From assembly GCF_012726175.1 (NCBI RefSeq), contig NZ_JAASAD010000002.1, positions 455,559-519,558 of the forward strand: 64,000 bases of DNA, read 5' to 3'. A program made the translations under genes and the position numbers. This stretch comes from Micromonospora sp. HNM0581 (GTDB taxonomy: Bacteria; Actinomycetota; Actinomycetes; Mycobacteriales; Micromonosporaceae). This document shows, one piece after another, positions 2,413 through 25,496 of the stretch (the first letter of the stretch is position 1; every line of letters starts with the position of its first letter). The notes beneath the pieces were generated by a model that saw only the letters and a program-made list of their open reading frames with translations, did not search any database and was not told the origin of the DNA.

Positions 2413-2414
2413 GC

Positions 2415-9420: not shown

Positions 9421-9464
9421 CAGTTCTCTCTCAGGCAAGAGGGATGGGATAGGGATGGCCGCAC

Positions 9465-10214
9465 TCAGGAGGTGCGGTGGCTCAGCACGGCGTTGCCGAC
9501 GACGGCACCGAGATCGGCGAGGAGATTGCGTAGCGGGGGCGGGGCCTGGTCGACCTGGTGGCGTAGGAACGCGCGGACCGCGAGGGGTGTGCCGTCGAGC
9601 AGGATCGGGTCGAGCTGGGTGTGCAGCGCCAGGCCCGCGAGGGCTACGTCGAAGGCGTTGAGCGGCTGGTAGTTGCGCAGTTGGTAGGACAGCCGTGCCC
9701 ACGACCAGGCGGCGGTGTTCACGTCGGTGGGGACGTAGATGCGCTTGCGCCGCAGCCGACCGACCTGCTGCTGTTGGAGGAGTCCGAGTTGCCACATGCG
9801 GGTGGCTACTTGGTCGTAGGCGGTGGTGGCGAGGAACGCCAACCACGTCCGGGTTGCCGCGTGACGTGGCTCGGCCACCAAGCGGTCGAGGACGAGATGT
9901 TGCAGCCAGTCCTTCGGCGGGACCGTGTTGATAACCCGCACATGGCGGCCCTCAAAGGTGACCCGACCCTCCCGGTACAGCTCGCCCAACAGCGCAGCGG
10001 CCAGGCCATGCGCCGTCGCCGAGTCGAAGAGACGTGAACGGCCGGTCTGGTCGTCGTGGGCCAGGTAAAAAAACTCGTCGGCAAGACGAACGCTGGTCTG
10101 CGCGGCGGCGCTGCCGACAGCCCGTACCGGCCGGGCCGGCTCCACTGGTGTCGGATGCTCGTACAGGTGGGGTGGTGCGTGGTCGTTGGATGCGCCGGAG
10201 GGTGGGGTGTTCAC
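9465..10214 (-). CDS. GPP34 (GOLPH3/VPS74-like) family protein
   Basis: The 249-residue sequence has the GPP34 pattern seen in many actinomycetes: LADEFFYLAHDDQTG near the start, then GLAAALLGELYREGRV, VLDRLVAE, LLQQQQVGRLRRKRIYVPTD and a closing LRNLLADLGAVVGNAVLSHR. The eukaryotic relatives bind phosphatidylinositol-4-phosphate; the bacterial role is not established. It starts at a GTG that overlaps the stop of the preceding small gene (GTGA), so translation is coupled. Confidence 0.8.
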   Translation of the reverse strand: MNTPPSGASNDHAPPHLYEHPTPVEPARPVRAVGSAAAQTSVRLADEFFYLAHDDQTGRSRLFDSATAHGLAAALLGELYREGRVTFEGRHVRVINTVPPKDWLQHLVLDRLVAEPRHAATRTWLAFLATTAYDQVATRMWQLGLLQQQQVGRLRRKRIYVPTDVNTAAWSWARLSYQLRNYQPLNAFDVALAGLALHTQLDPILLDGTPLAVRAFLRHQVDQAPPPLRNLLADLGAVVGNAVLSHRTS

Positions 10215-11285: not shown

Positions 11286-12689
11286 ATGCTGCTCTCACTT
11301 CCCTCCGTCGATGGGGCTGTCGTGAACGTGGACCGCTTTTCGCAGATGACGCACCCTGATCAGTCGTGGTGGGACGAGCCGGCGATGCGAAGTGCCTTGG
11401 CACGGCGCGACGTAGGCCAAATCTTCATGCTGTTGAACCGGCGTCACGGCATGACGCAACGCCGTATCGCCGAGCTTGCCGGGTTCGCTGCGTCCGAGGT
11501 CTACGAAATCACCCGTGGCCGGCAGGTCATGGCTTACGACGTCCTTGTGCGAATCGCAGAAGGACTGGGTATACCGCGCGCCTTGATGGGCCTCGGATAC
11601 GGGACAGAACCGGCTCAAGACCATCATCCCGAGCCGCTGCCCTTGGGTGAACCTGAGCAGCGGAAGCAGTTCATTGCCGCCCTGGCCGGCTTCGCCGTTG
11701 GCGGCTCACCAGACATCGAGGTGTGGCTCCCTCGGCCCGGTGAGCGGCCCCTCTCAGTGCCGGCGGTCGTGAACCCGGAGGCCATCGCCACCGTACGGGA
11801 AATCACTCAACGACATCGAGAGTTGGATGCCGCATACGGCGGTGGCTCATGTCGCGACTCGGCGCGGGGCTACCTGGCATGGGCGAGCTGTCTCACCCGT
11901 AGTCGCTGCCAAACTCCCCAACTGTCTGGGAAGCTACATGCCGAGCTGGCGGACTTGCACAATCTTGTCGGGTGGATGTCCCATGACCTGGGTGAACACA
12001 TGGAGGCGCGTCGCCACCTCGCGCAAGGTCTCGTCTACGCCCAAAAGGCGGGTGATTCGACGCTGATGGCGGACGCCTATTACCGTCTCGGCCGAGTCAG
12101 CATCCACCAGGGCAACCCCGCAGAGGCGCTGCACCTATTCCAACTCGGCCAGATCGTTGCCACGAACTCGAACTGCCTGACGTCGGTAGCGATCCTGCAC
12201 GCAAACATCGCCTGGGCCCACGCCAGAATGGGAAACGCGCCTGCGATGCGTGACTCACTGGCGCGCGCTCGTGACGAAATCGGCAGAGCCGACACCGCGG
12301 AAGCACCCCAATGGACACGGTTCTTCTGCGAACCAGGCGACCTGGAAGGAATGTCAGGAGTCGTCCACTCGGCGCTGGCTCGCTATCCGCAGTACCGCGA
12401 GCAACACGCCGCCCTCGCGCTGACCCACGCCGGCCGGGCTTTGGAACGGCGAACCGAGACGTCACGCAGTGGCGCATTCGACCACGTGACCATGGCCCTG
12501 GGATACGCGCTCCTCGGCGAACAAGACAAAGTCGGACCCCACGCCCATGCAGTCCTGGATGCCGCGCGACATGTGCGATCCCGCCGGCTGCTCGACCGGC
12601 TCAGCGACGTCGCAGACGTCATTGAACCACGCCAAGACAAGCAGCTGTCGGAGGTGGTGAAGGCCATCCGGGCACGCGTAGCCGCGTGA
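11286..12689 (+). CDS. XRE-family helix-turn-helix regulator with TPR domain
   Basis: This is a 467-residue regulator. The HTH lies near residues 45-95 (MTQRRIAELAGFAASEVYEI, then RIAEGLGIPRALMGLG). It is followed by tetratricopeptide-like helices (DLGEHMEARRHLAQGLVYAQ, ADAYYRLGRVSIHQGNPAEA, ILHANIAWAHARMG). Such proteins are common in Streptomyces and relatives, where the TPR part is thought to sense a ligand or partner. The likely start is ATG 11286 or a nearby GTG/ATG (11,321 or 11,346). It is divergent from the GPP34 block and 15 bp upstream of the APH-type kinase gene. Confidence 0.85.
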   Translation: MLLSLPSVDGAVVNVDRFSQMTHPDQSWWDEPAMRSALARRDVGQIFMLLNRRHGMTQRRIAELAGFAASEVYEITRGRQVMAYDVLVRIAEGLGIPRALMGLGYGTEPAQDHHPEPLPLGEPEQRKQFIAALAGFAVGGSPDIEVWLPRPGERPLSVPAVVNPEAIATVREITQRHRELDAAYGGGSCRDSARGYLAWASCLTRSRCQTPQLSGKLHAELADLHNLVGWMSHDLGEHMEARRHLAQGLVYAQKAGDSTLMADAYYRLGRVSIHQGNPAEALHLFQLGQIVATNSNCLTSVAILHANIAWAHARMGNAPAMRDSLARARDEIGRADTAEAPQWTRFFCEPGDLEGMSGVVHSALARYPQYREQHAALALTHAGRALERRTETSRSGAFDHVTMALGYALLGEQDKVGPHAHAVLDAARHVRSRRLLDRLSDVADVIEPRQDKQLSEVVKAIRARVAA

Positions 12690-12704
12690 CCTAATCTGGC
12701 GGGT

Positions 12705-13643
12705 ATGTCGACCACCCTGACCGCTGAGGCCGCCGACGAGATCCAGCGGGGACTCGACGCCGTCCGCCAGCAGGCCGGACTCGTCTCCGGCGAGGCGCAC
12801 CTCATGCGATACACGATCAACGCGGTCTACCGGATCGGCGACAGGGTGCTGCGGCTCTCGCACGGCGAGGTGGCACGAGAGCGGGCACAACGGGTCGTCC
12901 GCGCAATGACGCTACTCACGAAGCATGAGGTGCCAACTGTCGAGCTGGACACCAGCGTCGAACAGCCCGTGGTGGTGGACGAGTGGGTCGCCACGATTTG
13001 GCACTATATACCTCATCCGACGCGCCGCCCCGATCCGGTCGAACTGGCTGAGCCGCTGGCGAGGCTGCACGCTATCACCGAGACACCGTCATTCCTGCCT
13101 CGCTGGTCGCCCGTCGCCACGGCCCGACGCCGGCTGGCCGGGCTTACCCGTCTACCCACCGACGAACTCCTGTTCACGCAGCAGTGGGCGTCCCGAGAAG
13201 TCGAGCTATCTCTCGAGGACCTCGTGGCACGACTCCAGGCGCGCTGCGATGACCTGGAGCTCCGCGTGGCGGCTGCCACGTGGGAACTGTCGACCGGCGT
13301 CGTGCATGGTGACGCCCACGCGGGCAACGTTCTCGCGGGCCGGTTGTGTGACTTCGACTCACTGGCCATCGGGCCGCGCGAGTGGGACCTTGTGCCATTG
13401 GTGCACAGCGCCATCCGCTTTGGTGACCCAACTGAGCCGTACGAAAGGTTCGCCGCATCCTACGGCTTCGACCTTGCAACGTCACCGTCCTGGCCGCTCC
13501 TACGGGAGGTACGCGAACTCCAACTCGTGACCAGCGTGATGGACAAGCTCCCCGGCAGGCCAGAGGTGGCGCAGACGCTGGGCCATCGGCTACGTACCTA
13601 CCTGACTGGTGACCGATCAGCGGTGTGGCAGCGCTACCGATAG
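12705..13643 (+). CDS. Aminoglycoside phosphotransferase (APH)-family kinase
   Basis: The 312-residue protein contains the APH catalytic loop TGVVHGDAHAGNVL (His-Gly-Asp with downstream Asn) and the metal-binding LCDFDSLAIGPREWDLVPL. The N-terminal part (YTINAVYRIGDRVLRL) fits the nucleotide-binding lobe, though the family Lys is not obvious. APH-fold enzymes phosphorylate antibiotics, choline-like molecules or metabolites; the substrate here is unknown. It lies directly downstream of the XRE gene and convergent with the SerRS gene, separated from it by a strong hairpin. Confidence 0.8.
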   Translation: MSTTLTAEAADEIQRGLDAVRQQAGLVSGEAHLMRYTINAVYRIGDRVLRLSHGEVARERAQRVVRAMTLLTKHEVPTVELDTSVEQPVVVDEWVATIWHYIPHPTRRPDPVELAEPLARLHAITETPSFLPRWSPVATARRRLAGLTRLPTDELLFTQQWASREVELSLEDLVARLQARCDDLELRVAAATWELSTGVVHGDAHAGNVLAGRLCDFDSLAIGPREWDLVPLVHSAIRFGDPTEPYERFAASYGFDLATSPSWPLLREVRELQLVTSVMDKLPGRPEVAQTLGHRLRTYLTGDRSAVWQRYR

Positions 13644-13819
13644 CGGGCTCCGCGACGACCAAGCACACGGCGGTTGGTGCCGTCGCCGATGCTGAAGATC
13701 CTCAAGGAGAAGGGCGGCGACCACCAGCAACGAAGGCGAAAGTGGTCCCCGATCGGTCGGGACGCAGCCAACTCCGAGTAAGTGGCCTGATGACGCCATC
13801 TGTCGGCAACCTAAGCGAG

Positions 13820-13860
13820 CCTGAGACGGCCGACGTCGACAAGACGTCGGCCGTCTCAGG
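13820..13860. terminator. Perfect 18-bp hairpin between convergent genes
   Basis: CCTGAGACGGCCGACGTC at 13820-13837 is perfectly complementary to 13843-13860, with a 5-base loop GACAA. It lies between the APH-type gene and the SerRS gene, which converge, and so should terminate transcription from both sides. There is no T-tract, as is usual for actinobacterial hairpin terminators. Confidence 0.85.
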
Positions 13861-13922
13861 TGGGCATTGTCCGCTCCCAATTCGCCGAGGCGAATCGCGT
13901 CTGCCCACGACGGCTGTCCGTC

Positions 13923-15206
13923 CTACATCTCCGGCTCCAGTACCTTCTTGCCGCCCATGTACGGGACTAGGGCGGACGGCAGTTCGACCGTCCCGTCCTG
14001 CCGCTGCCCGTGCTCAATGACGGCCGCCCACATCCTCGGGGTGGCGAGGGCTGAGCCGTTGAGGTAGTAGGGGGCTCTGGTCTGACCGGACCCTACTCGA
14101 TACCGGATGTTGCTCCGCCTGGGCTGGAAGTCGGTGAAGTTCCCCACCGACGAGACCTCAAGCCAGCGATCGACGCCGGGCGAGTAGACCTCTAGGTCAA
14201 AGATCCGAGACGAGGAGAACGTCAGGTCTCCGGCCGCGAGGTCAACGACGCGGTAGGGCAACTCCAGGAGCTGAAGTGGCTTCTCAGCATCCGCGAGCAG
14301 GCCGTCGAACTCGTCCTGGACGGTTTCTGGCGTACAGATGCGGACGAGTTCGACCTTGTGGAACTCGTGGAGCCGCTGGAGGCCCCGGGTGTCCTTGCCT
14401 GCGGATCCGGCCTCTCGGCGGAAACAGACCGAGTACGCCATGTAGCGCTTCGGTAGTTCATCCGCCTCGAACAGCTCTCCGCGGTGCATGCCGGTCAGCG
14501 GGACCTCACCAGTGGGGACGAGCCACAGGTCGTCGAGGGTCGTGTTGTAGGCATCCTCGGCGAACTTGGGGAGGTGACCCGTACCTTCGAAGACCTCGCT
14601 GCGCACCATGTGCGGGACAAGGACCTCCCGATAGGTGTCACGGTTGAGGTCAAGGCCGAACTGGATGAGCGCGCGGATTAGCCGGGCGCCGTCGCCGTAG
14701 AGTAGCGAGAAACCGGAGCCGCTCAGCTTTGCGGCGCGCTCGGGGTCGTAGATCCCGAGCGCAGCTGCGATTTCCCAGTGCGGCCGGTAGTCCGCTGGGT
14801 TGAATCGGTCCGCCGGGGGGCCTTCGACTCGAAGGATCACATTGCACGACTCATCGAGGCCCTCGGGCGCTTCTGGAGACGGGAGGTTGGGCAGCATCAG
14901 CAGGTGCGACCGCGAGTTCTTCTCGGCTTCCCGCAGTTCCGCCTCTTTCTCGGCGATGCGGGACTTAAGGTCCGCGAGCGCCAGCCGCTCCTGTTCCGCG
15001 CTGGGATCACCACTTGAGATCAATTTCCCGACCTGCTTGGACCGGCGGTTCATTTCGGCCCGGAGCCCTTCAACCTCGGAGAGGATGCTGCGCCGTTGGA
15101 TCAGGGCTTGCCGCGCGGAGAGGACGGTCTCCGAGGAGACGCCCTTCCGTGCCAGCGCCGCAACGACAGCATCGGGTTGATCGAGCAGCAGATTCGAGTC
15201 GATCAC
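13923..15206 (-). CDS. serS: Seryl-tRNA synthetase, accessory copy in biosynthetic operon
   Basis: This is a full-length 427-residue SerRS. Residues about 30-100 form the antiparallel coiled-coil arm that binds tRNA-Ser (AEQERLALADLKSRIAEKEA). The class II core follows, with motif 2 near residues 262-283 (FRREAGSAGKDTRGLQRLHE) and motif 3 near 385 (LNGSALATPRMWAAVIEH). Because the tRNA-binding arm is present, it differs from the arm-less amino acid:carrier-protein ligase homologs. It charges tRNA-Ser in the cytoplasm. It is the last gene of the minus-strand peptide operon. Accessory SerRS genes in antibiotic clusters serve self-resistance (albomycin) or deliver seryl-tRNA (valanimycin); which applies here is inference. 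Confidence 0.9.
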   Translation of the reverse strand: MIDSNLLLDQPDAVVAALARKGVSSETVLSARQALIQRRSILSEVEGLRAEMNRRSKQVGKLISSGDPSAEQERLALADLKSRIAEKEAELREAEKNSRSHLLMLPNLPSPEAPEGLDESCNVILRVEGPPADRFNPADYRPHWEIAAALGIYDPERAAKLSGSGFSLLYGDGARLIRALIQFGLDLNRDTYREVLVPHMVRSEVFEGTGHLPKFAEDAYNTTLDDLWLVPTGEVPLTGMHRGELFEADELPKRYMAYSVCFRREAGSAGKDTRGLQRLHEFHKVELVRICTPETVQDEFDGLLADAEKPLQLLELPYRVVDLAAGDLTFSSSRIFDLEVYSPGVDRWLEVSSVGNFTDFQPRRSNIRYRVGSGQTRAPYYLNGSALATPRMWAAVIEHGQRQDGTVELPSALVPYMGGKKVLEPEM

Positions 15207-15351
15207 TTCTACCTCCTGTGCCAGCCAGCTTCCAGGCTTGTGCCTTGGACGGCCGGCAACGTCCAGTGTCCGGGTTCAGAGGATACGCCCGGCCGTTGAT
15301 GATCCCCTGACCGATCCCCTGCCAGGCTCTCGCCCACGGTGAAGGTGCCAG

Positions 15352-16524
15352 CTACGCGGTCGCCATCGCGAGCTCTTGAAAGACGTCGGTGGCGGTAAGG
15401 AGGACGGCTTCGTCGAGATCGAATTGGGGGGTGTGGAGATCCGGATGTTGATCTGACCTACCGCATCCGAGCAGGAACATCGCGCCGTCCGCATGGTCGA
15501 GGTACCAGCCGAAGTCCTCGCTGACCCCGACTGGACGATCGGGGTATGCCCTGCACTCCACCCTGAGCGTTCGGCAGGCGGCCTCGAGCCGAGCTACCGA
15601 TCGGGCTGAATTTTGAACGGGTGGCCGGATGCCGGAGGTCACTGCCACTTCGATCTTCGCTCCGGTCTCGTCCGCCACTGCCAGCGCCGTCGCCTCTATG
15701 GCGGCCACAGCGGCATCCTGGTCGGCCCAGGAGAGAGCGCGGAGAGTGCCTTCGAGCTGGCATCTCGTGGCGACTCGGTTAGGCCCATCGCCACCGCGGA
15801 TAAGGCCGATGCTCAGGGCGGTAGGCGAGGCGTCATGCAGCTGCCTGCCCGTGTCGGGCCGGAGGCGTCCGTACAGCCTGACTGCCGCTGAAACCGCATC
15901 CACGCCGCCTGAGTCGGCGGCGGTTCCGCTCGCCCGCCCCTCGTGTCCGTACACGTTGAACGTGAGTCCGGCGACGGACGCCATCATGGTCCCGGCACGG
16001 ACCCCTACGACCCCCTCCGCCAGCTCGGGCCAGACATGGCAGGCGAAGATCTCAGGTGGGACCAAGCCTTTCGGAAGGCCCTCGATGACCAACGGCGCGC
16101 CCGAAGGGTAGGTCTCCTCCGCCTGCTGGAAGATTAGTAAGACGGCGACCGGGGCTGGCTTGATCCTCAGTCGGCGCGCGAGCGCCAGCAAGGCGGCGGT
16201 GTGCGCGTCGTGGCCACATGCATGCATGACGCCGGGACGGACAGATGCGTACCCACGCCCGATGGACTCCTGGACGCGGATGGCATCCATGTCCGCGCGA
16301 AAGCCGATCGCGGGCCGGGCGGCCTCCGGTCCCACGACTGCCGCGACGCTTGTAGCCGCCGGGCGAAACGGCGCGAGGCCCATGCGGCGAAGCAGCCGCT
16401 CGACGTAGTTGGCCGTTCGCCACTCGTGGTGCCCCACCTCGGGATGCCTGTGGATGGCCCGACGCACCCGCCGCACGAACTCCAGCTCCCCGATACGGCT
16501 GCTATCCGTATATGGGTCGACCAT
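15352..16524 (-). CDS. M20D-family amidohydrolase/peptidase
   Basis: The 390-residue protein carries M20D signatures: IGFRADMDAI near residue 75, VMHACGHDAHTAALL at 100-114 with zinc ligands, and FQQAEE with the catalytic Glu near 135, then ACHVWPEL. These enzymes hydrolyse N-acyl or peptide-type amides of amino acids. Within the operon it could remove a protecting acyl group or degrade a leader-derived fragment. It lies 27 bp after the second radical SAM gene and upstream of the SerRS gene, on the same strand. Confidence 0.85.
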   Translation of the reverse strand: MVDPYTDSSRIGELEFVRRVRRAIHRHPEVGHHEWRTANYVERLLRRMGLAPFRPAATSVAAVVGPEAARPAIGFRADMDAIRVQESIGRGYASVRPGVMHACGHDAHTAALLALARRLRIKPAPVAVLLIFQQAEETYPSGAPLVIEGLPKGLVPPEIFACHVWPELAEGVVGVRAGTMMASVAGLTFNVYGHEGRASGTAADSGGVDAVSAAVRLYGRLRPDTGRQLHDASPTALSIGLIRGGDGPNRVATRCQLEGTLRALSWADQDAAVAAIEATALAVADETGAKIEVAVTSGIRPPVQNSARSVARLEAACRTLRVECRAYPDRPVGVSEDFGWYLDHADGAMFLLGCGRSDQHPDLHTPQFDLDEAVLLTATDVFQELAMATA

Positions 16525-16551
16525 ACTTAACCTCGCACAATTGGTGTGTCA

Positions 16552-17832
16552 TTAGATAAAGAAGCTGTGAGTTGGCGTTGGCAGGACGGCGCGGAGGTCA
16601 TCGATCCATATCCGCACCTCGTCCATGCGCCCGTCGGCGCGGAGTCGTTCAATTTCTCTGAATAGCCGGTTGAAGAAGAAGCCCCTGCCATTGCTTGGGC
16701 AATAAGTCTGATAGCACGCTGTTTCCCGAGCCAGCTGAAGAACTGACTGCCGGCGCTCCCCAGCCCACAAGTCGTCAATGCTCGCCTCAGCTACATTGCC
16801 GATGAAATAGTCGGGGTTGCCGTAGCGGTCGGAACAAGCCACCATGTCGCCGTTCGGCGTAACCTCTCCGAACAGGCCGGCCGCAATGCATCCCCGGTCG
16901 TCTCGTTCAGCGGGTGGTGCCGGATTAGCCGACTGATCGGGAACAACGACATCGATGCCGGAGTCGACGAGTGCCTGACGTAACGGGGCACCAGGGCCTA
17001 CGACCGAAAGGAACTTGTCAAGCGTGTCGTTCCGAATGTCGATCTGCGCCGTATAGAACGGAAAGGCTGGGCGGAAGATGGCGTAGTCGATGCCTCCACT
17101 GCCCTGCGACTCGCAGAGCTGCGCCAAGTATCGGGCGGTGGGCTCCAAGTCGCCGATGTTACCCTCGTCCACTACGACCGATACGCCGACGAGCGTGCCG
17201 GACCGCCGTTCGCTTCGCATCCGGGCTAGTTCCGCCAAGTTCTGGAGAACCCGGCTGCCGAAATTGCGACGAGGATCGTAATCGTGGTATTTGGCGTGCA
17301 CATCGCCCGTGACGGCGTTGAGGCTTACGCGGATGAATACGAGGTTGGCGTCGAAAAGGGCCGCTGCCCGCTCAGCATTGAGCAGGCTTCCATTGGTGAA
17401 CAAACACTGGGACAGGCCGAGCCGGTCGGCCTTGACGGCCGCCGGGTAGAGAAGCGGATTCATTGTCGGCTCGCCGCCGACCCACATGATGCCGACCTTG
17501 TGCTCCGCCAGGTTCGTCAGCACCCGATCGAGTTTGGTGTCACGTATGACAGTCAGCGGCGTGGCTCTCGGGTGGCTGAAGACGTCGGCGTCAGACCATT
17601 CTTCGCGAGCGCTACGGCAGCTACACCAACGACAGGCGAAGTTGCACAGGTACGTCGGTGACAGCTCGACATGAAGGGGCTTCACTTCGTCATACCGTCC
17701 GGCGAGCACCAGCTGCACCCGGTCGTGCCAGAAGACCCACTGGCCCGCTTCCTTGCGCGCCCGGTCGAACTCGTCCCGCCTACCATAGCCAGCAACCTTG
17801 TCAGGTAGTGGCCAGCGTTCGCGCTCGGTCAC
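16552..17832 (-). CDS. Radical SAM enzyme with SPASM-like tail (second copy)
   Basis: This 426-residue protein has the radical SAM cluster motif CNFACRWC at residues 63-70 (Cys63, 67, 70) and the SAM-binding IMWVGGEPTMNP (the GGEP motif). The C-terminal auxiliary-cluster region contains Cys in GCIAAGLFGE, MVACSDRYGNPDY and ACYQTYC (Cx4C), resembling SPASM/twitch domains that bind extra Fe-S clusters in peptide-modifying enzymes. It is paralogous to the gene just upstream, sharing W.HW/WH..L.L.GRY, SD.YGNP.Y and the ending HSFFI. The GTG start at 17832 has AGGAGCGAAG directly before it. It most likely modifies a peptide or amino acid by radical chemistry. Confidence 0.85.
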   Translation of the reverse strand: MTERERWPLPDKVAGYGRRDEFDRARKEAGQWVFWHDRVQLVLAGRYDEVKPLHVELSPTYLCNFACRWCSCRSAREEWSDADVFSHPRATPLTVIRDTKLDRVLTNLAEHKVGIMWVGGEPTMNPLLYPAAVKADRLGLSQCLFTNGSLLNAERAAALFDANLVFIRVSLNAVTGDVHAKYHDYDPRRNFGSRVLQNLAELARMRSERRSGTLVGVSVVVDEGNIGDLEPTARYLAQLCESQGSGGIDYAIFRPAFPFYTAQIDIRNDTLDKFLSVVGPGAPLRQALVDSGIDVVVPDQSANPAPPAERDDRGCIAAGLFGEVTPNGDMVACSDRYGNPDYFIGNVAEASIDDLWAGERRQSVLQLARETACYQTYCPSNGRGFFFNRLFREIERLRADGRMDEVRIWIDDLRAVLPTPTHSFFI

Positions 17833-17849
17833 CTTCGCTCCTGCCAGGG

Positions 17850-19328
17850 TTAGACGAAAAAGGAATGGCCCAGCGGATAGGTGACCTCCCGAAGGTCGTC
17901 GACCCACTGCCGGACGACATCCATTTGGCCGGCCTTGCGATATGCCTCGATCTGGTGGAATACCCGGTTGTGGTGATGGCCACGGGAGTTGTGCGGGCAG
18001 GTGGTCTTGAAGCACTCCCGCGCGTTTACCTGGTCCAGCACCGCGCGACGGCGGTCTGAGCGCCAAATCTCTTCGAGGCTGGTCTCAAAGATGTTGCCGA
18101 TCGTGTATTCGGGGTTGCCGTATGAGTCCGAGCACAGCTGGATGTCTCCATTGTGCCGGATCTCGCCGTACAGGCCGTAGGAGAGACAGGATCCGTCGGA
18201 GTAAGTGTCCGGCTCCGGCGGCGGGTCGAATGAATCCTTGATCAGGACGAGCGGAATACCCAGGTCGTCGATGATTCTCCATGCCTCGCCACCCTCAGTA
18301 ACGAGATCCAGCGCGCGGCGTGTGGTGTCCTCCTTGAGGCGTGCCCACTGCTGGTCGAAGTGCTGGTAGTTCATTACGGGGCGCGCGATCACATAGTCGA
18401 TGCCGGGGCCTGCGGCGTCGACAACGTCGCGGATGAGTTCGGCCGCCGCCACAACGTCGTCAAGATTCCGTTCGTCGACGATGAGGGAGATGCCAACGAG
18501 CGTCCGGGCGCCCCTTTGGAGTTTCCGGCGCGCAAGGTCTTTCATGTTCTGCTTGGCCCGCTCGAAGTAGTCCCAGCCCTTTGGATATCCGTGGAACTTC
18601 CTGTATGCCTCTTCCGTTCCGCAGTTGAGACTGACGCGGACGAGAATGGGGTCCGTGTCCAGGCATTCGTCGGAGTCGAGAAAGACTCCGTTCGTAAGGA
18701 AGCTCGACGTGATGCCCTTGCTGCGTGCGTAGCGCATCCCGTCGTACGTGTACGGATTCGCGGTCGGGTCTCCACCGCCCCACACGATGCCCATCTGATC
18801 GTCGGCGCGGTGCTCCCCGAGTTGATCGATCACACGGCGTAGGCCATGCGCGTCCATCGTGTTCTTCTTCTCGACCTCGGTGTTGTGTTCCCAGGTGCCG
18901 CCTTCGACCCATTTCGTCCGAGTGACCCGCCTGCTGCAGTGTGGGCACATGAAGTTGCAGACGAGCGTGAAGATGCCCTCGAAGTGCGCCGGTGGGACGT
19001 CATGGTAACGGCCCTCCAGAATGAGGTCGGTCCGCGTCTTCCAATGCACCCACTGGGCCATGTACTTGGGTGCCTTGACGAATTCCGAGTAGGTGCCGTA
19101 TCGGCCAACCTGATCGGGCATTGGGTACTGGGTACGTCCCGCGATTCGAGGAAGCCAAGCCCCCGGGGTCGGTTGGAGCAATTCCTCGTTGGAGAACAGC
19201 GCCTCATGGTCGCTGACTTGTAGAACCTGCCGACCGGCGATGCTCCCAACGGGTCGGAGCGGTGACGGATCATTGGCTGCGATGATCGGTAGGCGGCGGG
19301 TGGGTACACGTTCGGCGCTCTCTGTCAT
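17850..19328 (-). CDS. Radical SAM enzyme with SPASM-like tail (first copy)
   Basis: The 492-residue protein has CNFMCPHC at residues 124-131 (Cys124, 128, 131), the GGGDPTANP SAM-binding loop, and C-terminal Cys in GSCLSYGLYGE, IQLCSDSYGNPEY and ECFKTTC. It differs from its paralog by an N-terminal extension of about 60 residues that could bind a peptide substrate. Both proteins end in HSFF plus a hydrophobic residue. The ATG at 19328 is preceded by GGAGCGAGGAC; longer in-frame versions run into the preceding gene and are low-complexity. It follows the PP-loop gene by 25 bp. Confidence 0.85.
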   Translation of the reverse strand: MTESAERVPTRRLPIIAANDPSPLRPVGSIAGRQVLQVSDHEALFSNEELLQPTPGAWLPRIAGRTQYPMPDQVGRYGTYSEFVKAPKYMAQWVHWKTRTDLILEGRYHDVPPAHFEGIFTLVCNFMCPHCSRRVTRTKWVEGGTWEHNTEVEKKNTMDAHGLRRVIDQLGEHRADDQMGIVWGGGDPTANPYTYDGMRYARSKGITSSFLTNGVFLDSDECLDTDPILVRVSLNCGTEEAYRKFHGYPKGWDYFERAKQNMKDLARRKLQRGARTLVGISLIVDERNLDDVVAAAELIRDVVDAAGPGIDYVIARPVMNYQHFDQQWARLKEDTTRRALDLVTEGGEAWRIIDDLGIPLVLIKDSFDPPPEPDTYSDGSCLSYGLYGEIRHNGDIQLCSDSYGNPEYTIGNIFETSLEEIWRSDRRRAVLDQVNARECFKTTCPHNSRGHHHNRVFHQIEAYRKAGQMDVVRQWVDDLREVTYPLGHSFFV

Positions 19329-19353
19329 GTCCTCGCTCCAGAAGATTGAAGGG

Positions 19354-20556
19354 CTAACGCGAAACCCATCCGTGCTTGTCCAGCACCTCGCACACGTCAC
19401 AGGTGCCTCGCCATAAATCCTGGCTGTCCGGCTGGTCGCGAACGCTGGCACCGCAGTTTTCGCACTTGAGGAAGCGCGGGGGCTGCTGCGCGACGCGCCT
19501 CGCGTGTGCGGTAAACATCCAGGTCTCAATGCCCGGCCAATGCCACTGGAGCTGGTCGGCCAGGTAGTAGAGGTAGTTCCGATCGCTTGGGTTGAACTCC
19601 CACTGGTTCGGTTCTGTCTGTTTCGGCGCGTGGCCAGTCTTATGGAGGTAGTACAGGTGCAGCTCGCGCTTCGGCACGAATGCCAGAGGAAAAACGTAGT
19701 CATATGGCCCAACCGGGCGAGCCGGAATTCCGCTCATATCGAACCCGACAGTATAAGAGTTTAAGAGGCCCGCGAGCAGATCCGTCGTGTGTAAGCCAAG
19801 GGCCACTGTGGATGAATTTACTTCGTCGGCATGGACCTCAAGGACGCGGCGGGTTGTGTGGTGGTCGACATACATTGCGGCGTGGGCGTCGTCGGTTTCC
19901 ATCAGATGCATGAGGATCTGAGCGATTGGACGATTCAAGTTGAAAACGTCTTCGGCATAGCCGGGCTCAAGGACTTTATGCGAGACCTCGTGCCGTTCGG
20001 CAAGGCCCCTTGCGAAGTCAAACGTCTCCGACCATTTGCTGTCGAAGTCCTGGAAGGTTGCCGCATGTATTTCCAGCCCGGGGCACGCGGCGTCGCGGTA
20101 TGCGGCCAACAGCATCAGGAGGGACCCGCTATCGACACCTCCTGAAAGGCCGAGCACAACAGAAGAAGTTGGACGCAGGAGGGAAAATTGATCGATCGTC
20201 TCGCGCACTACCGTTGCCACGCGATCGGCGACGCCGGGGACATCCAGCGCGGTGCGCTCCATGCTGAGGCTTCCGTTCGCAGCCAAGGCCAGCCGTCTAT
20301 GGACGTAGGGTCTGCTGCTGTCGCGGCTTTCGAACAGCTTCCGGATCCCCGCGATGTCGTAACCCTCGATCAGCTTGGCGAGGTAGGAGCGGTTGGGATC
20401 CAAGACATGATCGTCCGCGACGATGGACGACTCGTCGCAGAAGGTCAGCACCGAGTTCGGCGGGATGGCGTTGCGCAGAAGAGTGGCTGCCACAGTGTCG
20501 CCCGGTCGCTGCACGAGCGTATGCAGACCGCCGCGCCGGTCAAGTAAGGAAAACAT
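19354..20556 (-). CDS. PP-loop ATP pyrophosphatase with C-terminal Zn ribbon
   Basis: This 400-residue protein has the PP-loop SGGVDS at residues 138-143 after a VVLGL strand, which marks N-type ATP pyrophosphatases (AsnB, NAD synthetase, tRNA thiolation enzymes). The glutaminase domain of asparagine synthetase is absent. Residues about 10-70 (TVAATLLRNAIPPNSVL) recall a ThiS/ubiquitin-like beta-grasp fold but lack a terminal Gly-Gly. The C-terminus carries CENCGA and CDVC, a zinc-ribbon pair like that of TtuA/Ncs6 thiolases. I infer adenylation of a carbonyl, followed by sulfur or amine transfer. It sits 100 bp downstream of the peptide gene, after a hairpin. Confidence 0.7.
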   Translation of the reverse strand: MFSLLDRRGGLHTLVQRPGDTVAATLLRNAIPPNSVLTFCDESSIVADDHVLDPNRSYLAKLIEGYDIAGIRKLFESRDSSRPYVHRRLALAANGSLSMERTALDVPGVADRVATVVRETIDQFSLLRPTSSVVLGLSGGVDSGSLLMLLAAYRDAACPGLEIHAATFQDFDSKWSETFDFARGLAERHEVSHKVLEPGYAEDVFNLNRPIAQILMHLMETDDAHAAMYVDHHTTRRVLEVHADEVNSSTVALGLHTTDLLAGLLNSYTVGFDMSGIPARPVGPYDYVFPLAFVPKRELHLYYLHKTGHAPKQTEPNQWEFNPSDRNYLYYLADQLQWHWPGIETWMFTAHARRVAQQPPRFLKCENCGASVRDQPDSQDLWRGTCDVCEVLDKHGWVSR

Positions 20557-20597
20557 GGCAACCCTTCCGTATGGGAGTGAGAACTGGCCTGAGCGTC

Positions 20598-20627
20598 GGT
20601 GGGGCGCCGTGACAACGGCACCCCACC
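20598..20627 (-). terminator. Hairpin after the peptide gene (attenuator or partial terminator)
   Basis: Two 13-base arms (20598-20610 and 20615-20627) pair with a single G-T position around a 4-base loop, in the 99-bp gap between the peptide gene and the PP-loop gene. Such hairpins after precursor genes in peptide natural product operons make precursor transcript more abundant than enzyme transcript. No T-tract follows. Confidence 0.65.
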
Positions 20628-20655
20628 GCCTACTCGTTGCGATAGGGATCAGCTG

Positions 20656-20808
20656 TCACTTGCTCGCGCGTGGATCCGCGCAGCAGGTGCGGAAGCGGAT
20701 CAGATCCGCGTCTCGCTTGACGGCCACCTCACGTAGAGCGGCGACCAGGCTGGTCGGCGTGCCTCCCGAGGTCTGCGTTGGTACACGAGTTTCGACGATC
20801 ACCGACAC
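20656..20808 (-). CDS. Candidate precursor peptide of the island operon
   Basis: A 50-residue frame starts at GTG 20808 with an excellent GAAGGAG site 5-7 bases upstream; an in-frame ATG at 20823 would give 55 residues but has no such site. The N-terminal part (MSVIVETRVPTQTSGG) and a helix (SLVAALREVAVKRDADL) would form a leader, and the C-terminus reads LIRFRTCCADPRASK, with adjacent Cys, Arg and Asp-Pro. It lies between two oxygenase genes and the PP-loop and radical SAM genes on the same strand, and a strong hairpin follows. This is the arrangement expected of a RiPP precursor. I know of no family match. The alternative is an unrelated small protein. Confidence 0.65.
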   Translation of the reverse strand: MSVIVETRVPTQTSGGTPTSLVAALREVAVKRDADLIRFRTCCADPRASK

Positions 20809-20881
20809 GTGTTCTCCTTCCATTCGCAGGGAGACGGCCGTTATCGGCCGCCGTCACGGTGCCATCGTCAGGTGGCGCTGC

Positions 20882-21739
20882 TCACGCGCGATCCGGCCGC
20901 TCGTCGGCCGCCCCGACGTTGCGCAACCAGCGGCGGGGGCCGAGCCCGCAGCCACCGACAGGCAGGTCTTCCCGCCAGTTCACAATCGTCGTGTCAGCCA
21001 GCCCCTGGTTGGGCCGGCCCAGAAAGCTCCGCATCTCAGTGGGGAGACGGTTCAGCTGATCGGCTTCCGGCTCCGGTACTGGGCTCGTCGGTCGCGCCCA
21101 GGCTGGCCGATAGGAGACCGCCATCAACGCTCGACTGGTGTCCGAGATGTTCGGGCCGACGCCATGAAAGATCCGTTGGTTGATGATCACGGCGTCTCCG
21201 GCCTCACAGGTGATGACCTGCTCGTCGGCGTCTGATCGGATCCGGCCGTAGGGCATCGCGTCCATGTGCAGGCTCAGGTGAGAGAACGGGACCACCCGCA
21301 GAGGCGCTCGCTCTGGTGTCAGGTCATTCAGGTAGTAAAGGAGCCGAACGAGTACGGGCGGTGTTCCGGCGGCACCGAGGATGTTCGAACCGTACGGGTG
21401 GCTGTCGGTGTGCAGGGGCATTCCGGCGTAGCCGGGATCGGAACGGGAGTAGCTCACGCCGACGCAGATCAGCTCATCGCCGAACAAGTCAGCGAGGAAA
21501 GCCGTCGCGGCGGGGTGGCGAATCAGCTGCCAGACGGCGGAGAGCTCCGACCACTGAACTCCGTGCGCATACCACTGCTTGTCGGTGTAGCTGGACTGCT
21601 TCAGCTCGATGTCTTCCACCGCGTCGCGCAGCTCGGTCAGATGGTCGGAATCGAGGAGACCGGGCAGGACCGTGTAACCCTGAAGCTCCAGCTCTTTGAC
21701 GCGGGTCGGAGCGTGGATCGTCGACACGGCACCCGTCAT
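20882..21739 (-). CDS. Phytanoyl-CoA dioxygenase (PhyH)-like oxygenase
   Basis: The 285-residue protein has the non-haem iron triad: H110 and D112 in MPLHTDSHPYG and H192 in RIFHGVGPNI, with R203 (TSRALMAVSY) placed to bind 2-oxoglutarate. N-terminal GYTVLPGLLDSDHLTELRD matches PhyH-type enzymes. It should hydroxylate or otherwise oxidise a small molecule or residue using Fe(II), oxygen and 2-oxoglutarate. Its ATG overlaps the stop of the TauD-like gene (ATGA), so the two oxygenases are translationally coupled. It is 73 bp upstream of the candidate precursor gene. Confidence 0.8.
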   Translation of the reverse strand: MTGAVSTIHAPTRVKELELQGYTVLPGLLDSDHLTELRDAVEDIELKQSSYTDKQWYAHGVQWSELSAVWQLIRHPAATAFLADLFGDELICVGVSYSRSDPGYAGMPLHTDSHPYGSNILGAAGTPPVLVRLLYYLNDLTPERAPLRVVPFSHLSLHMDAMPYGRIRSDADEQVITCEAGDAVIINQRIFHGVGPNISDTSRALMAVSYRPAWARPTSPVPEPEADQLNRLPTEMRSFLGRPNQGLADTTIVNWREDLPVGGCGLGPRRWLRNVGAADERPDRA

Positions 21740-22698
21740 TGCGTCTCCACCTTCCTCATGACCTTCGTGCGTCGCAGTTCCCTGGTGGACGCCGCGGGAT
21801 TCCGGATCGGTGTTCGAGCATGCAGGCACCGGCCGTTGTCGATCAGCATCAGATCACCGGCCTGGAGATGGATGCGGACGACGCCCTTGCAGTTTTCGAC
21901 CAGCTGCTCGAACGCCACCATGTCGTCGAGGCAGCTGGCCGGCAAGGGGGCGAGACCCTCCGCGTGCGAGAGCGCCGCCGTGTACCGAAGCCAACGAATA
22001 TGAAGCGTCGCCAAGTTGATCGCGGGTTCCCAGTGGATCCCACCGCCCAACTCGTCCGCGATCCGCCAGGGCAGAGCTTGTGCGGCGAGGCGTTTTACCA
22101 CGCGTCCGTTCGGGCCCGCCGTCGCTTCCTCCAGCAACGTCGCGACGTCCAGCAGCCGGGATTCTCCGTCCTGGCTTTGATCCGGTCGCACGCAGAAGAG
22201 GCAGGTGTAGTCGTTGGGCTGGGGCCAGTCGGTGCCATCGGTATGCAGAAACTCGTTGAGGACCTGCCCGGCGACCGCGCGGTCCCTGGAAGGAACAATG
22301 TGGCGTACGACCCGGCTCCAGGGCTGTCGGTAGGGCTCGACGAGTAGACCCAGGGTTGCGCTGACCGCGACCAGGAGCGGCGTCGCTCGACTTGCGGGAA
22401 GGCCACGGACGATCGTGAACCAGGGCGGGTCGGCAAGCCGCTTGGCTACCTCTTCGACTAGGTCGTCGAACGCGTTGCCTGCCGCTTCTCGAACGGATGC
22501 GACGATCGCGTCCTGGTAGGCGGGCTCGGCGAGGGCTTTGTCATCGATCTCAATCGAGGCGAGGGCGCGGCCGAGGTGGGCTGACTGAGCTGATCGGGTG
22601 GTGAGAAGAGGTACGCCGCCGACTACGGTCACGCTCGTCCGCCCCTCGCTCAGACCGCTACGTGTCCGAGACCGTACCAAGCGTGACGGTGTCGACAC
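21736..22698 (-). CDS. TauD/clavaminate synthase-like iron/2-oxoglutarate dioxygenase
   Basis: The 320-residue protein carries H152 and D154 in NEFLHTDGTDWP, the distal H293 in NGRCLHARTPI, and an Arg pair at 309-310 (TRELRRTKV) for 2-oxoglutarate. This is the motif set of the TauD/TfdA/clavaminate synthase group, which hydroxylates or desaturates amino acid-like substrates. It follows the reductase-like gene by 85 bp and overlaps the PhyH-like gene start by four bases. Together these imply two successive oxidations in the pathway. Confidence 0.8.
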   Translation of the reverse strand: MSTPSRLVRSRTRSGLSEGRTSVTVVGGVPLLTTRSAQSAHLGRALASIEIDDKALAEPAYQDAIVASVREAAGNAFDDLVEEVAKRLADPPWFTIVRGLPASRATPLLVAVSATLGLLVEPYRQPWSRVVRHIVPSRDRAVAGQVLNEFLHTDGTDWPQPNDYTCLFCVRPDQSQDGESRLLDVATLLEEATAGPNGRVVKRLAAQALPWRIADELGGGIHWEPAINLATLHIRWLRYTAALSHAEGLAPLPASCLDDMVAFEQLVENCKGVVRIHLQAGDLMLIDNGRCLHARTPIRNPAASTRELRRTKVMRKVETQ

Positions 22699-22783
22699 AA
22701 TCGACGTCTATCGAGTGATCAGCTTCTGAGATCCTGCCGATGAGGAACGACAAGGGTTTCTCTTCAGTTGCGGAGAGGATGGC

Positions 22784-23665
22784 TCATGTGGACTGTTGCA
22801 GGGCTCCCGAAGCCGACGCCCCAGAAGCTCGCTGAGCACCCGCGGCGGCGGAACCCATGAACTCACGGACGCCCCGAAGGCGGGTACGCAGCACGGACCT
22901 CGCCCGGTCGATCCGCAGGCGGACGTCCGTGGGCCTCGGTGAGCAAAGGTCTTTGACGGTTCCAGCAGACAGGCGGGCGGAGTCGAGACCGGCGTGGCGC
23001 GCGATGAGCACGCCGAGTTCATAGCGGCTGACTGCGTCCGCACCAGCCACGTTGAGGATGCCGGAATACGGTTCTGCGGCGAGTTCAAGCAGCGCGTCCG
23101 CCAGGTCGTCAACGTGGATCGGCGCACGCACCTCGTCTGTGAACAAGACGGCATCAGCATCACCGGAGACGAGCCTGTGGACAAGTGCCTCGTGCGCGCT
23201 CTGACCGTCCCCCACGATGAGCGAGGTCCGCACGATGGCCGCAGCCGGTGCGACTGCCCGGACTGCGGTCTCCGCTGCAGCCTTGGCAGAACCGTAGTAG
23301 TAGACCGGATCGGGGGCTGCGCCTTCGTCGTAGTACACGTCCTTTCCAGAGAACAAGGCGTCGCTGGAGACGTGCACGAGTCGCGCCCCGACGTCAGCAG
23401 CGGCCCTCGCAACGTGCGCCGCTCCGTCCGCGACGGCATGCCAGTCCTCCCGCCCGGCCGCGGTATGAACAACGACGTCAGGACAGACGCACCGCACCGT
23501 GTCGCGGACCGCCGACAAGTCCCGAATGTCGAGCCGGTGATCAGCTGGACCGGAAGCCGTTGTGTGGTAGGTGCCGATCACCTGCCATCCCGCTGCCGCT
23601 GCGCGTACCGCTACTCGCCTGCCAAGGTGCCCGCTCGTGCCCGTGATCAAGATGCGGCTTGTCAT
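22784..23665 (-). CDS. RmlD-like NAD(P)-dependent reductase/epimerase (extended SDR)
   Basis: The 293-residue protein opens with ILITGTSGHLGRRVAVRAAA, a Rossmann GxxGxxG motif, and has DVVVHTAAGRED, then VHVSSDALFSG and the catalytic YxxxK in YYGSAKAAAE. This combination matches dTDP-4-dehydrorhamnose reductase-like extended short-chain dehydrogenases. GGGAGG lies 8 bases before the ATG. It is the first gene of the minus-strand operon, divergent from the phage capsid gene, so the operon promoter should lie in 23,666-23,740. A role in reducing a carbonyl of the product is inferred only from context. Confidence 0.8.
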   Translation of the reverse strand: MTSRILITGTSGHLGRRVAVRAAAAGWQVIGTYHTTASGPADHRLDIRDLSAVRDTVRCVCPDVVVHTAAGREDWHAVADGAAHVARAAADVGARLVHVSSDALFSGKDVYYDEGAAPDPVYYYGSAKAAAETAVRAVAPAAAIVRTSLIVGDGQSAHEALVHRLVSGDADAVLFTDEVRAPIHVDDLADALLELAAEPYSGILNVAGADAVSRYELGVLIARHAGLDSARLSAGTVKDLCSPRPTDVRLRIDRARSVLRTRLRGVREFMGSAAAGAQRASGASASGALQQST

Positions 23666-23792: not shown

Positions 23793-25496
23793 GTGGAGTT
23801 TGAGATCCCTTCGAGCCTGGACGGGCTCGACCTCGATGCGCTGGACCGCTTGGAGACTAATGCGGTCGCGGCGTTCGACGCCCTCCGCGACGCCCCAGAC
23901 CTGGACGCCTCCGGTCTGGCGCAGCTGCGGGAGCTGGCCACGTTCGTTACGTCGGTACGGGCCCAGCAGGAGCAGATCGAGCAGGACGCGGCGGCCGTCG
24001 CGTCGGAACTGGACGACCTGGACGCCGCCGTGCACGGCAACGCAAATGAACCCGAGGGCGACGACGGCGATGGGGATTCGGGTGAAGGCGAGGACGAGCC
24101 CGAGGGCAACCCGGTCGAGGAGACGCCTGTCGAGGAGCAACCGGCACCGCAGCCGACGCCGGTCGTAGCGTCGCTGGCGCGGCGGGCGGCCCGCCGGCAG
24201 CCGAAGCCGAAGGTGACGCAGGGCGGCCGGTCAGCGATCATCAAGGCGGCGGCGGATGTGCCGAACGTGCCGCACGGGCACGTGTTCTCGTCGGTGAGCG
24301 AGGTCGCGGCGGCGTTCGATGACAAGTTCGCGGGGTTCCCACGTGGCGTGGGGTCGCAGGTGCAGACGCGCATCAAGCAAAACGTGGCTCGGGTGGAGCT
24401 GCCCGTCGACCAGGCCCTCGTTGCCGGGGGCAGCGGCCTGGTCGACCTGGGACTGATCGACCTGGCCGGCAGCGAGTCGCGCCTGACCGGCGGGAACCTC
24501 GTTGCGGCCGGCGGCTGGGGTGCGCCGTCGGAGACGTTGTGGGAGCTGTGCGAGGGGCTGGAGACGACCGAGGGCATCCTCGACCTGCCGGGCATCTCGA
24601 TTCCACGCGGCGGCGGCATCAAGGTGCCGGCCAACTTGGACTTCGCCACGCTGTACTCGGCGACTGGGTTCGTGCAGACGGAGGCCGACTCGATCGCCGG
24701 CACCGACAAGCCGAGCTACCGAGTGCCCACGGTCGACTTCGTGGAGACCCGCTTGGAGATCGACGGGGTGCAGATTGAGCAGGACATCGTGCAGAACGCG
24801 GTGTGGCCCGAGTTGACTCGTGACGTGGTGCGACGGGCCATGACTGCCCACGAGCACAAGATCAACGCGCGGATGGTGCAGCGGATGGCCACCGCTCCGT
24901 CGCAGTCGACGCAGTTTGCGCTCACCCTCGGCGGCGACATCGGCGGCGATGATACGACCACCGCGGTGCTCGGTGCGCTGTCGCTCGCGGCGACCGACTA
25001 CCGGTACCGGTACCGGATGAGCCGCCGGGCCTTGCTGGAGTGCGTCGCACCGCTGTGGCTGCTCGACTGGATCCGGGCCGACATGGCGCGCCGAGCGGGG
25101 GTGAACTTCTTCGACGTGACGGACGAGCAGATCACCGCATGGTTCACGCGGAGGCACCTGCGTCCGCAGTTCATCTACGACTGGCAGGACGGGTACGTCA
25201 ACGCGGGCGGTGCCGGATTCGGCGGGGCCACCGCGCCGGGCCAGTGGCCGGCCGCGGTCGACTTCCTGATCTACGCGCCCGGTACCTGGGTGAAGGGCAC
25301 GAAGCCGATCATCGACCTGTCGGCGGTCTACGACAGCATGAAGCTGAAGGACAACGAGTACATCGCGCTGTTCACGGAGCAGGCGACCTTGTTGGTGAAG
25401 CGGTGCTACGTGTCGTACAAGCTGACCGTGCCGCTGTGCCCGGCCGGTGTCACCGGGCAGACCGTCGCGTTCACGTGCGCGGCGTCCGAGGACTGA
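23793..25496 (+). CDS. Major capsid protein with N-terminal scaffold-like region
   Basis: This 567-residue protein has an acidic, helical N-terminal region (residues about 1-115, with AQQEQIEQDAAAVASELDDL followed by a Glu/Asp/Gly linker) that resembles the delta/scaffold domain of HK97-type capsids, presumably cut off by the maturation protease. The remainder (from FSSVSEVAAAFDDKFAGF) has the character of an actinophage capsid subunit, including ATLYSATGFVQTEADSIAG. GAGGAG precedes the GTG start. It should directly follow the protease/small protein genes but is separated from them by the island. Confidence 0.8.
   Translation: MEFEIPSSLDGLDLDALDRLETNAVAAFDALRDAPDLDASGLAQLRELATFVTSVRAQQEQIEQDAAAVASELDDLDAAVHGNANEPEGDDGDGDSGEGEDEPEGNPVEETPVEEQPAPQPTPVVASLARRAARRQPKPKVTQGGRSAIIKAAADVPNVPHGHVFSSVSEVAAAFDDKFAGFPRGVGSQVQTRIKQNVARVELPVDQALVAGGSGLVDLGLIDLAGSESRLTGGNLVAAGGWGAPSETLWELCEGLETTEGILDLPGISIPRGGGIKVPANLDFATLYSATGFVQTEADSIAGTDKPSYRVPTVDFVETRLEIDGVQIEQDIVQNAVWPELTRDVVRRAMTAHEHKINARMVQRMATAPSQSTQFALTLGGDIGGDDTTTAVLGALSLAATDYRYRYRMSRRALLECVAPLWLLDWIRADMARRAGVNFFDVTDEQITAWFTRRHLRPQFIYDWQDGYVNAGGAGFGGATAPGQWPAAVDFLIYAPGTWVKGTKPIIDLSAVYDSMKLKDNEYIALFTEQATLLVKRCYVSYKLTVPLCPAGVTGQTVAFTCAASED

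Follow-up and report, generated by a model that had tools for sequence, protein, structure and literature searches.

What is a hidden 50-residue peptide for, in a gene cluster that also encodes two radical SAM enzymes, a PP-loop enzyme and a second seryl-tRNA synthetase (SerRS)? The question is raised by a 64,000-nucleotide stretch of the genome of Micromonospora sp. HNM0581 (contig NZ_JAASAD010000002.1, positions 455,559 to 519,558), which we refer to as the window. Nine minus-strand open reading frames (ORFs) span positions 13923-23665, separated by intergenic gaps of 85, -4, 73, 99, 25, 17, 27 and 145 bp, which confirms an original prediction of nine same-strand genes with short gaps or overlaps. 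Besides the peptide, the gene kinds recognized by Pfam and NCBIfam are a SerRS, an M20 enzyme, two proteins with Radical_SAM and SPASM domains, a PP-loop protein, PhyH and TauD oxygenases, and an RmlD-like short-chain dehydrogenase/reductase (SDR). Our answer, to which we give an even chance, is that the locus encodes a precursor with a near-invariant 13-residue core and that its neighbours probably mature this into a natural product that would inhibit SerRS; the chief maturing enzyme would be a ubiquitin-fold/PP-loop protein, for which adenylation of the core is predicted. The product is likely to represent a class of peptide-derived natural products not described before and is predicted to interfere with protein synthesis, and we file the system as a new class within the ribosomally synthesized and post-translationally modified peptides (RiPPs). 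Directly supported by the comparisons that follow are the gene content, the joint occurrence of peptide and PP-loop enzyme, the conservation of the core, the relationships of the enzymes in sequence and fold, and the close link to a second SerRS.

The peptide ends in DLIRFRTCCADPRASK, and the very good ribosome-binding site first noticed for the small ORF at 20656-20808 is indeed present, the GTG start lying 5 nt past AAGGAG. An in-frame ATG at 20823 (+5 residues) was rejected as the start: it lies upstream of AAGGAG, and the homologues P0127 and P0129 begin at the GTG position. A scan of genome contigs with the PP-loop protein returned four full-length close relatives, from Kutzneria sp. CA-103260 (L002), Spongiactinospora sp. 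TRM90649 (L003), Streptomyces sp. LBL (L004) and Streptomyces sp. MNU76 (L005), which together with the window we call type i. In all four, a peptide ORF ending in DLIRFRTCCADPRASK lies directly upstream of the PP-loop gene, and Kutzneria carries a second precursor copy. Across the six copies in these five genomes, the codons of the last 16 residues show synonymous changes and zero amino-acid changes.

A profile search with seven peptides returned 217 proteins at E≤10, of which the 120 listed are the basis of the figures given here. The ending is exactly RFRTCCADPRASK in 100 of these 120, and R replaces K in 10 more; counted from the end, Lys-20, Arg-13, Phe-12, Arg-11, Cys-9, Asp-6 and Ser-2 are identical in every one. 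Mean pairwise identity is 97.7% over the last 13 residues and 26.7% over positions -40 to -21 (119 listed, without Geobacillus), the variable leader and conserved core of a RiPP precursor, although the core figures are inflated because retrieval requires candidates to have 5-residue words in common. The loci retrieved with the PP-loop protein are free of this word bias; they uphold the conserved core, yet the core differs between types. None of six peptides tested, including P0152, called FXSXX-COOH by one source, matched an NCBIfam family at E 0.5. An FXSXX-COOH (FxsA) identity was discarded for the window peptide: the F-x-S-x-x end, as read from the family name, is absent, and the core ends in PRASK.

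Two further subtypes extend this pairing. Type ii is a locus (L007 11742-13200) on the conjugative plasmid pGS18 of Geobacillus stearothermophilus, where an ORF of 47 residues ending in DLLRFRTCATDPITSW, the most divergent core among the 120 listed homologues, is followed after 94 bp by a PP-loop gene whose product is 27% identical. The plasmid also carries genes for a methyltransferase, a PNP-like phosphorylase and an MFS transporter. Type iii comprises seven actinobacterial loci (L014-L016, L018, L024-L026), three from one genus of the window's family, and so not independent, and four from a second family. Their PP-loop proteins are 27-28% identical, and all seven have an ORF ending in KFRTTCTDC(V/L)PN(Y/F), at a distance from the PP-loop gene of 1.2 kb in four loci and 6.0 kb in three. 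A shared signature, [RK]FRT-xxx-D-xxxxx-stop, always 13 residues long, is found in 13/13 family loci, and in each of the 12 relatives outside the window the signature ORF lies beside the PP-loop gene or within ∼6 kb of it. Linkage of a short precursor gene to modifying enzymes thus holds for all 13 loci. The original prediction, that the ORF encodes a precursor matured by its neighbours, was said to fail if homologous operons lacked the ORF or if its C-terminus was not conserved: the ORF accompanies the PP-loop gene in 12/12 loci other than the window's, and conservation is much stronger at its C-terminus than in the leader, so the prediction is supported on both counts.

Chance matches to the signature are rare. 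The strict form found 0 matches in 2.83 Mb of reversed and block-shuffled family loci, where a looser form, which misses the Geobacillus peptide, found 2; the corresponding counts for ten other fetched loci were 0 and 1. This single match (L008) is an in-frame ORF of 31 residues ending in RFRTCCADAPER; the spacing of 5 residues before the stop is absent, and a 157-residue ORF overlaps it. We take it as chance. A pattern scan of viral contigs gave three matches: this ORF and two others, in L009 and L010, that are out of frame within unrelated phage genes. L006, another match of the contig scan, from a Rhizobiaceae metagenome-assembled genome, encodes an ordinary TtcA-like protein without the N-terminal domain and without a signature peptide, and was excluded from the count of relatives.

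As a further test of linkage, we compared longest-contig sizes among the listed matches to the PP-loop protein (120 of 172), the peptide (120 of 217) and the first radical SAM protein, rSAM1 (119 of 134). Among these, 30 sizes were common to PP-loop and peptide, 41 to PP-loop and rSAM1, 21 to peptide and rSAM1, and 13 to all three; when one set was shifted by 1-50 bp, the means were 0.69, 0.86 and 0.67 (maxima 5, 4 and 3). The cyanobacterium Hormoscilla and the alphaproteobacterium Parvibaculum each have PP-loop and rSAM1 matches on a contig of the same size, and no peptide from either is among the matches listed. The PP-loop protein is sporadic: at E≤1e-30 it occurs in 4/200 same-family genomes, in 2/396 genomes sampled phylum-wide (the window's own and one type-iii genome) and in 4/394 genomes of another family, the only type i being the window's own. 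It is found in 1/72,556 plasmid records.

The PP-loop protein is the enzyme common to the whole class, and its fold is like that of tRNA-modifying enzymes. In 71 sequences, S138, G139, G140, D142 and S143 of the PP-loop motif are invariant and each of the four ribbon cysteines is conserved (71/71), with no other Cys column common to >30% of sequences; the two further cysteines of the window protein, C40 and C158, are not family-wide. The N-terminal domain is less securely placed: SAMP2 matches 11/71 family members (best E 3.2e-6) and does not match the window's own protein at E 1, and a model of the domain (pLDDT 63) resembles ubiquitin with a best E of 6e-3, which is weak support. Solved-structure matches cover residues 78-384 and say little about this domain. 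By fold, TtuA and TilS rank far higher than asparagine synthetase for the PP-loop domain; a weak Pfam match to Asn_synthase spans just 74 residues (23.0 bits, cut-off 21). One source describes TtuA-type thiolases as carrying a three-Cys Fe-S cluster (PMC7138817). The window enzyme has the PP-loop domain of the TtuA fold, shared with the TtuA/NcsA tRNA thiolases that work with TtuB, but the three cysteines for the catalytic [4Fe-4S] cluster are not conserved, only those of the ribbon being shared among the 71 sequences. Thiolation by the TtuA mechanism, our first candidate, was set aside because these Fe-S cysteines are not conserved; thiolation via another sulfur donor is possible. Unlike TtuA/NcsA, the window enzyme is accompanied by a peptide gene in clusters that resemble those of secondary metabolism.

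The radical SAM pair belongs to one branch. By tblastn at E≤1e-3 on the fetched loci, rSAM1, its paralogue rSAM2 and the M20 enzyme are present in 4/4 type-i relatives, a TauD-like oxygenase in 3/4, PhyH in 2/4, and the SDR and two genes next to the cluster (for an APH-type kinase and a regulator) in 0/4. Of the enzyme set first proposed, the SDR (0/4), PhyH (2/4) and TauD (3/4), to judge from these counts among the close relatives, look like decoration. The peptide occurs together with the radical SAM pair in the type-i relatives (4/4) and without it in Geobacillus and the seven type-iii loci, where at the same threshold no radical SAM pair was found and the only reference proteins matched were the PP-loop protein and, in Geobacillus, the peptide. 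L018 has in addition a 22-residue APH match at E 0.008. The window's rSAM2 is 36-38% identical to rSAM1 of L002-L005. Against the NCBIfam SPASM maturases (mycofactocin, PqqE, DynA, PapB and others), the best scores were 49.6 bits for rSAM2 and 45.3 bits for rSAM1, where the cut-off is 380, and the best 25 of 34 rows for rSAM2 and all 21 for rSAM1 fall below cut-off. No solved-structure relative of rSAM1 or TauD was found at E 0.001.

The remaining member of the type-i set is the SerRS, whose score identifies it as a full-length serS equivalog (TIGR00414, 395.8 bits, cut-off 301.65, over 417 residues). Two SerRS genes are present in the window's genome, with 36% identity between the cluster copy and the other, and what we take to be the class II motifs keep their positions in an alignment of both. 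Each of the L002-L005 genomes has one cluster-type SerRS (65-70% identical) and one copy at 41-42%; the cluster-type gene lies inside the fetched locus in L004 and L005, and ∼10.5 kb (Spongiactinospora) or ∼23 kb (Kutzneria) from the PP-loop gene. With the best 4-8 candidates per genome scored at E 1e-120, the cluster type was found in 1/200 same-family genomes (the window's own) and in 0/388 genomes of another family, a sample without a positive control.

Table 1. Features of the cluster in window coordinates.
Feature	Coordinates	Strand	Basis
Second, cluster-type seryl-tRNA synthetase	13923..15206	-	TIGR00414 and genome comparisons
M20 amidohydrolase/carboxypeptidase-like	15352..16524	-	TIGR01891, 228.9 bits (cut-off 153.75); 54-58% identical in L002-L005
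rSAM2, radical SAM/SPASM paralogue (CNFACRWC)	16552..17832	-	Pfam; 64-69% identical in L002-L005
rSAM1, radical SAM/SPASM (CNFMCPHC)	17850..19328	-	Pfam; 72-76% identical in L002-L005; family search
Class-wide enzyme: ubiquitin-like domain, TtuA-fold PP-loop domain, C-terminal four-Cys ribbon	19354..20556	-	
Four-Cys ribbon (C365, C368, C386, C389)	19390..19464	-	Conserved Cys columns
PP-loop motif SGGVDS (residues 138-143)	20128..20145	-	Family alignment
N-terminal ubiquitin-like (SAMP2/ThiS-like) domain (residues 1-76)	20329..20556	-	SAMP2 matches and low-confidence model
Precursor peptide gene, 50 residues, GTG start	20656..20808	-	ORF and translation; start shared with close homologues
Near-invariant 13-residue core RFRTCCADPRASK	20659..20697	-	Homologue listing and codon comparison
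Shine-Dalgarno AAGGAG of precursor gene, 5 nt spacer	20814..20819	-	Sequence upstream of GTG
PhyH-type Fe/2-oxoglutarate oxygenase, accessory	20882..21739	-	Pfam; 2/4 relatives
TauD-type Fe/2-oxoglutarate oxygenase, accessory	21736..22698	-	3/4 relatives, 30-50% identical over matched part
RmlD-like SDR	22784..23665	-	Pfam; 0/4 relatives' loci

How might these proteins act together? The PP-loop enzyme would adenylate a carbonyl of the core, that of the C-terminal carboxylate or of Asp-6 (counted from the end), and so prepare it for an N or S nucleophile, much as TtuA- and TilS-type enzymes perform adenylation on tRNA. The two groups keep a fixed spacing in all three subtypes. In the type-i branch, the two SPASM radical SAM enzymes would then cross-link or otherwise alter the core, the M20 enzyme may trim or release the product, possibly taking off the C-terminal Lys to expose Ser, the Fe/2-oxoglutarate oxygenases would decorate it, and the cluster SerRS would keep the producer's translation going.

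It is instructive to compare this scheme with known systems. In sactipeptides, ranthipeptides and other SPASM-made RiPPs, radical SAM/SPASM enzymes adjoin a Cys-containing precursor, as they do here; the window differs in having two paralogues, both under every listed NCBIfam cut-off, together with a PP-loop enzyme and a SerRS. Microcin C is alike in logic, a gene-encoded peptide being turned into an aminoacyl-tRNA synthetase inhibitor, but its adenylating enzyme is the ThiF-like MccB rather than a PP-loop protein, and the window pathway is known from genes alone. Albomycin and valanimycin are, to our knowledge, not ribosomal peptides. They resemble the window in that a biosynthetic cluster of actinobacteria encodes a second, divergent SerRS, and the available part of the source names no precursor gene or PP-loop enzyme of the window type for them (PMC9032320). 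The same source names microcin C as an inhibitor of aspartyl-tRNA synthetase (AspRS) and gives SerRS as the target of the albomycin warhead, in whose pathway a radical SAM enzyme takes part; it describes AbmK, the divergent SerRS2 of the albomycin cluster, as an immunity factor for E. coli JM109 cells that express it and as also biosynthetic, and VlmL, the valanimycin SerRS, as biosynthetic (PMC9032320).

The nearest chemistry, by analogy, is that of nitrilobacillin, whose nitrile synthetase PesC is described as an asparagine-synthetase-like PP-loop enzyme that carries out ATP-dependent adenylation of a RiPP C-terminus (PMC13060819). In both systems a PP-loop enzyme of a RiPP cluster acts, or in the window would act, on the precursor, and in nitrilobacillin other enzymes hydroxylate the peptide. 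PesC uses glutamine-derived ammonia, in contrast to the TtuA/NcsA fold, ubiquitin-like N-domain and four-Cys ribbon of the window enzyme; the partners named for it are MNIO and HExxH enzymes, with no SerRS mentioned in the part of the text considered, whereas the window has SPASM radical SAM enzymes and a SerRS (PMC13060819). The combination had matched no pathway known to the original prediction, and our literature searches, which most subscription papers lay outside, likewise found no published description of a peptide/PP-loop/SPASM/SerRS system and no paper containing the core strings.

Several observations weigh against our preferred explanation. The pathway is known here only from its genes, the core figures are inflated as described, and none of the nine cluster genes is an exporter by Pfam. 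No type-iii genome (0/7) has a SerRS copy of >44% identity, and the second SerRS of two of these genomes is on a different contig or far from the cluster; therefore SerRS cannot be the target throughout the class. A microcin-like rule, by which the next-to-last residue names the target (Asn in type iii), gained no support because no extra AspRS lies beside any of the 7 type-iii clusters; in a search of the AspRS family only, each type-iii genome has one full-length AspRS, away from the cluster, with a partial match elsewhere in G643. Finally, a cluster SerRS can be biosynthetic, as VlmL is, or serve both roles, as AbmK does (PMC9032320). This last point leads to a quite possible, if still minority, alternative: a RiPP pathway in which the SerRS is mainly biosynthetic, the seryl-tRNA or seryl-adenylate that it supplies being attached to the whole peptide or to part of it, as in the VlmL and AbmK precedents (PMC9032320). 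A SerRS accompanies the cluster in 5/5 type-i genomes, and the strongest argument is that in Spongiactinospora (L029 9319-11844) the cluster-type SerRS lies 45 bp behind a FemAB-like gene on the same strand. The FemAB fold includes aminoacyl-tRNA-dependent transferases, and FemAB-like genes occur in 7/7 type-iii loci. Those loci, however, are without the cluster-type SerRS, and tblastn with three FemAB-like queries found no such gene in the window, L002, L004, L005 or L028. Immunity is only modestly favoured over a purely biosynthetic role, and the SerRS may have both.

SPASM radical SAM enzymes also occur in the pyrroloquinoline quinone (PQQ) and mycofactocin pathways, and the pair in this cluster, an extremely conserved core beneath differing leaders and a Cys-Cys-Asp that could bind metal would all suit a peptide that gives rise to a conserved redox cofactor or metallophore, the near-fixed core reflecting a fixed small molecule. 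We consider this improbable: the PP-loop protein is sporadic in the genome samples above, its locations are mobile, its partner enzymes differ by branch and the SerRS link is left unexplained. The only recurring extra oxidoreductase seen, without a systematic search for recurrence, is an aldo/keto reductase common to L004 and L005. It is less probable still, and would surprise us, that the short ORF encodes a small subunit of the PP-loop enzyme, either regulatory or acting as a carrier (for sulfur or a substrate, for example), in a system that modifies RNA or nucleotides. The PP-loop fold of tRNA thiolases fused to a ubiquitin-like domain would fit such a role, as would the RlmN/Cfr-like radical SAM proteins of two relatives, the SerRS in five type-i genomes, the NDK- and nucleotidyltransferase-like genes of type-iii loci and the PNP-like gene of Geobacillus. 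A variable leader before a fixed C-terminus, the second Kutzneria precursor copy, and a SPASM pair, M20/M28 peptidases and oxygenases typical of RiPP clusters argue otherwise, as does the lack of conservation of the Fe-S cysteines of TtuA-type thiolases (PMC7138817).

A bolder version of the RiPP reading, in which type-i products would be seryl-adenylate mimics that poison SerRS, with the cluster's own SerRS as immunity, we propose only tentatively and think it rather less than probable. It would describe a new RiPP class built around a fused ubiquitin-like/PP-loop enzyme recruited from tRNA thiolation, with the signature [RK]FRTxxxDx5-COOH, that is found among Actinomycetota, on a conjugative plasmid from Bacillota and, by linked enzymes, in a cyanobacterium and an alphaproteobacterium. 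If true, the class-wide enzyme of a RiPP class with an unusually rigid core would derive from tRNA modification, and a ready-made target, SerRS, could be tested with purified proteins. The 13-residue sequence is a handle with which genomes of different phyla can be mined, and what the common step does could be compared among the subtypes, of which there are at least three with differing partner enzymes.

The type-iii loci resemble a sister pathway, with the same kind of PP-loop enzyme and without the SPASM pair. By tblastn, 7/7 encode a methyltransferase-aminotransferase fusion and a FemAB-like protein. Pfam, applied to selected proteins, identifies such fusions in L014 and L018, an M28 peptidase in L018, an M16 peptidase in L014, NDK-like proteins in L014, L018, L025 and L026, a phosphodiesterase in L025, and a nucleotidyltransferase-like protein in L018 (the L014 match is under cut-off). 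Among type-i relatives, RlmN/Cfr-like radical SAM proteins lacking the first ∼70 profile positions are encoded in or beside the Kutzneria cluster (L002 712-1404 and 13971-14963), one of the two cut short and adjoining the second peptide, and once in Spongiactinospora (L003 14028-14903). In Kutzneria, a C39 peptidase-ABC transporter (L028 1828-4104), a candidate leader peptidase and exporter, is encoded between the SerRS gene and the second copy of the peptide gene. Lasso clusters have a transglutaminase-like leader peptidase and a RiPP recognition element (RRE) beside an Asn-synthase-like cyclase; no Pfam match to a lasso-type leader peptidase or RRE was found among the cluster proteins, RRE-specific models not being applied.

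The genomic setting of the window cluster is prophage-like. The island (11286-23665) has a GC content of 63.9%, compared with 70.3% in the left and 71.0% in the right flank, and sits in a prophage-like module, where it is flanked by genes for a MuF-like head protein (2355-4616) and a major capsid protein (23793-25496) that are ∼19 kb apart. In Gordonia phage Twister6, the distance from the head-morphogenesis gene to the annotated capsid gene is ∼3 kb; in Rhodococcus phage ReqiPine5, 371 bp separate the head morphogenesis gene from the following gp14, which is probably the capsid gene, judging from gene order only (two genes short of the tail region). The PP-loop gene was found in 0/50,697 phage records. 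The whole island interrupts the head-gene module of this element (2355-25496), with a tape measure gene at 37947 and integrase genes at 53982 and 60453. At the SerRS end of the cluster, the opposite strand (11286-13643) encodes an NsdA-family regulator and the APH-type kinase, neither with a counterpart in L002-L005. Between the MuF gene and the island lies an amino acid permease gene (7927-9846), possibly part of the inserted DNA.

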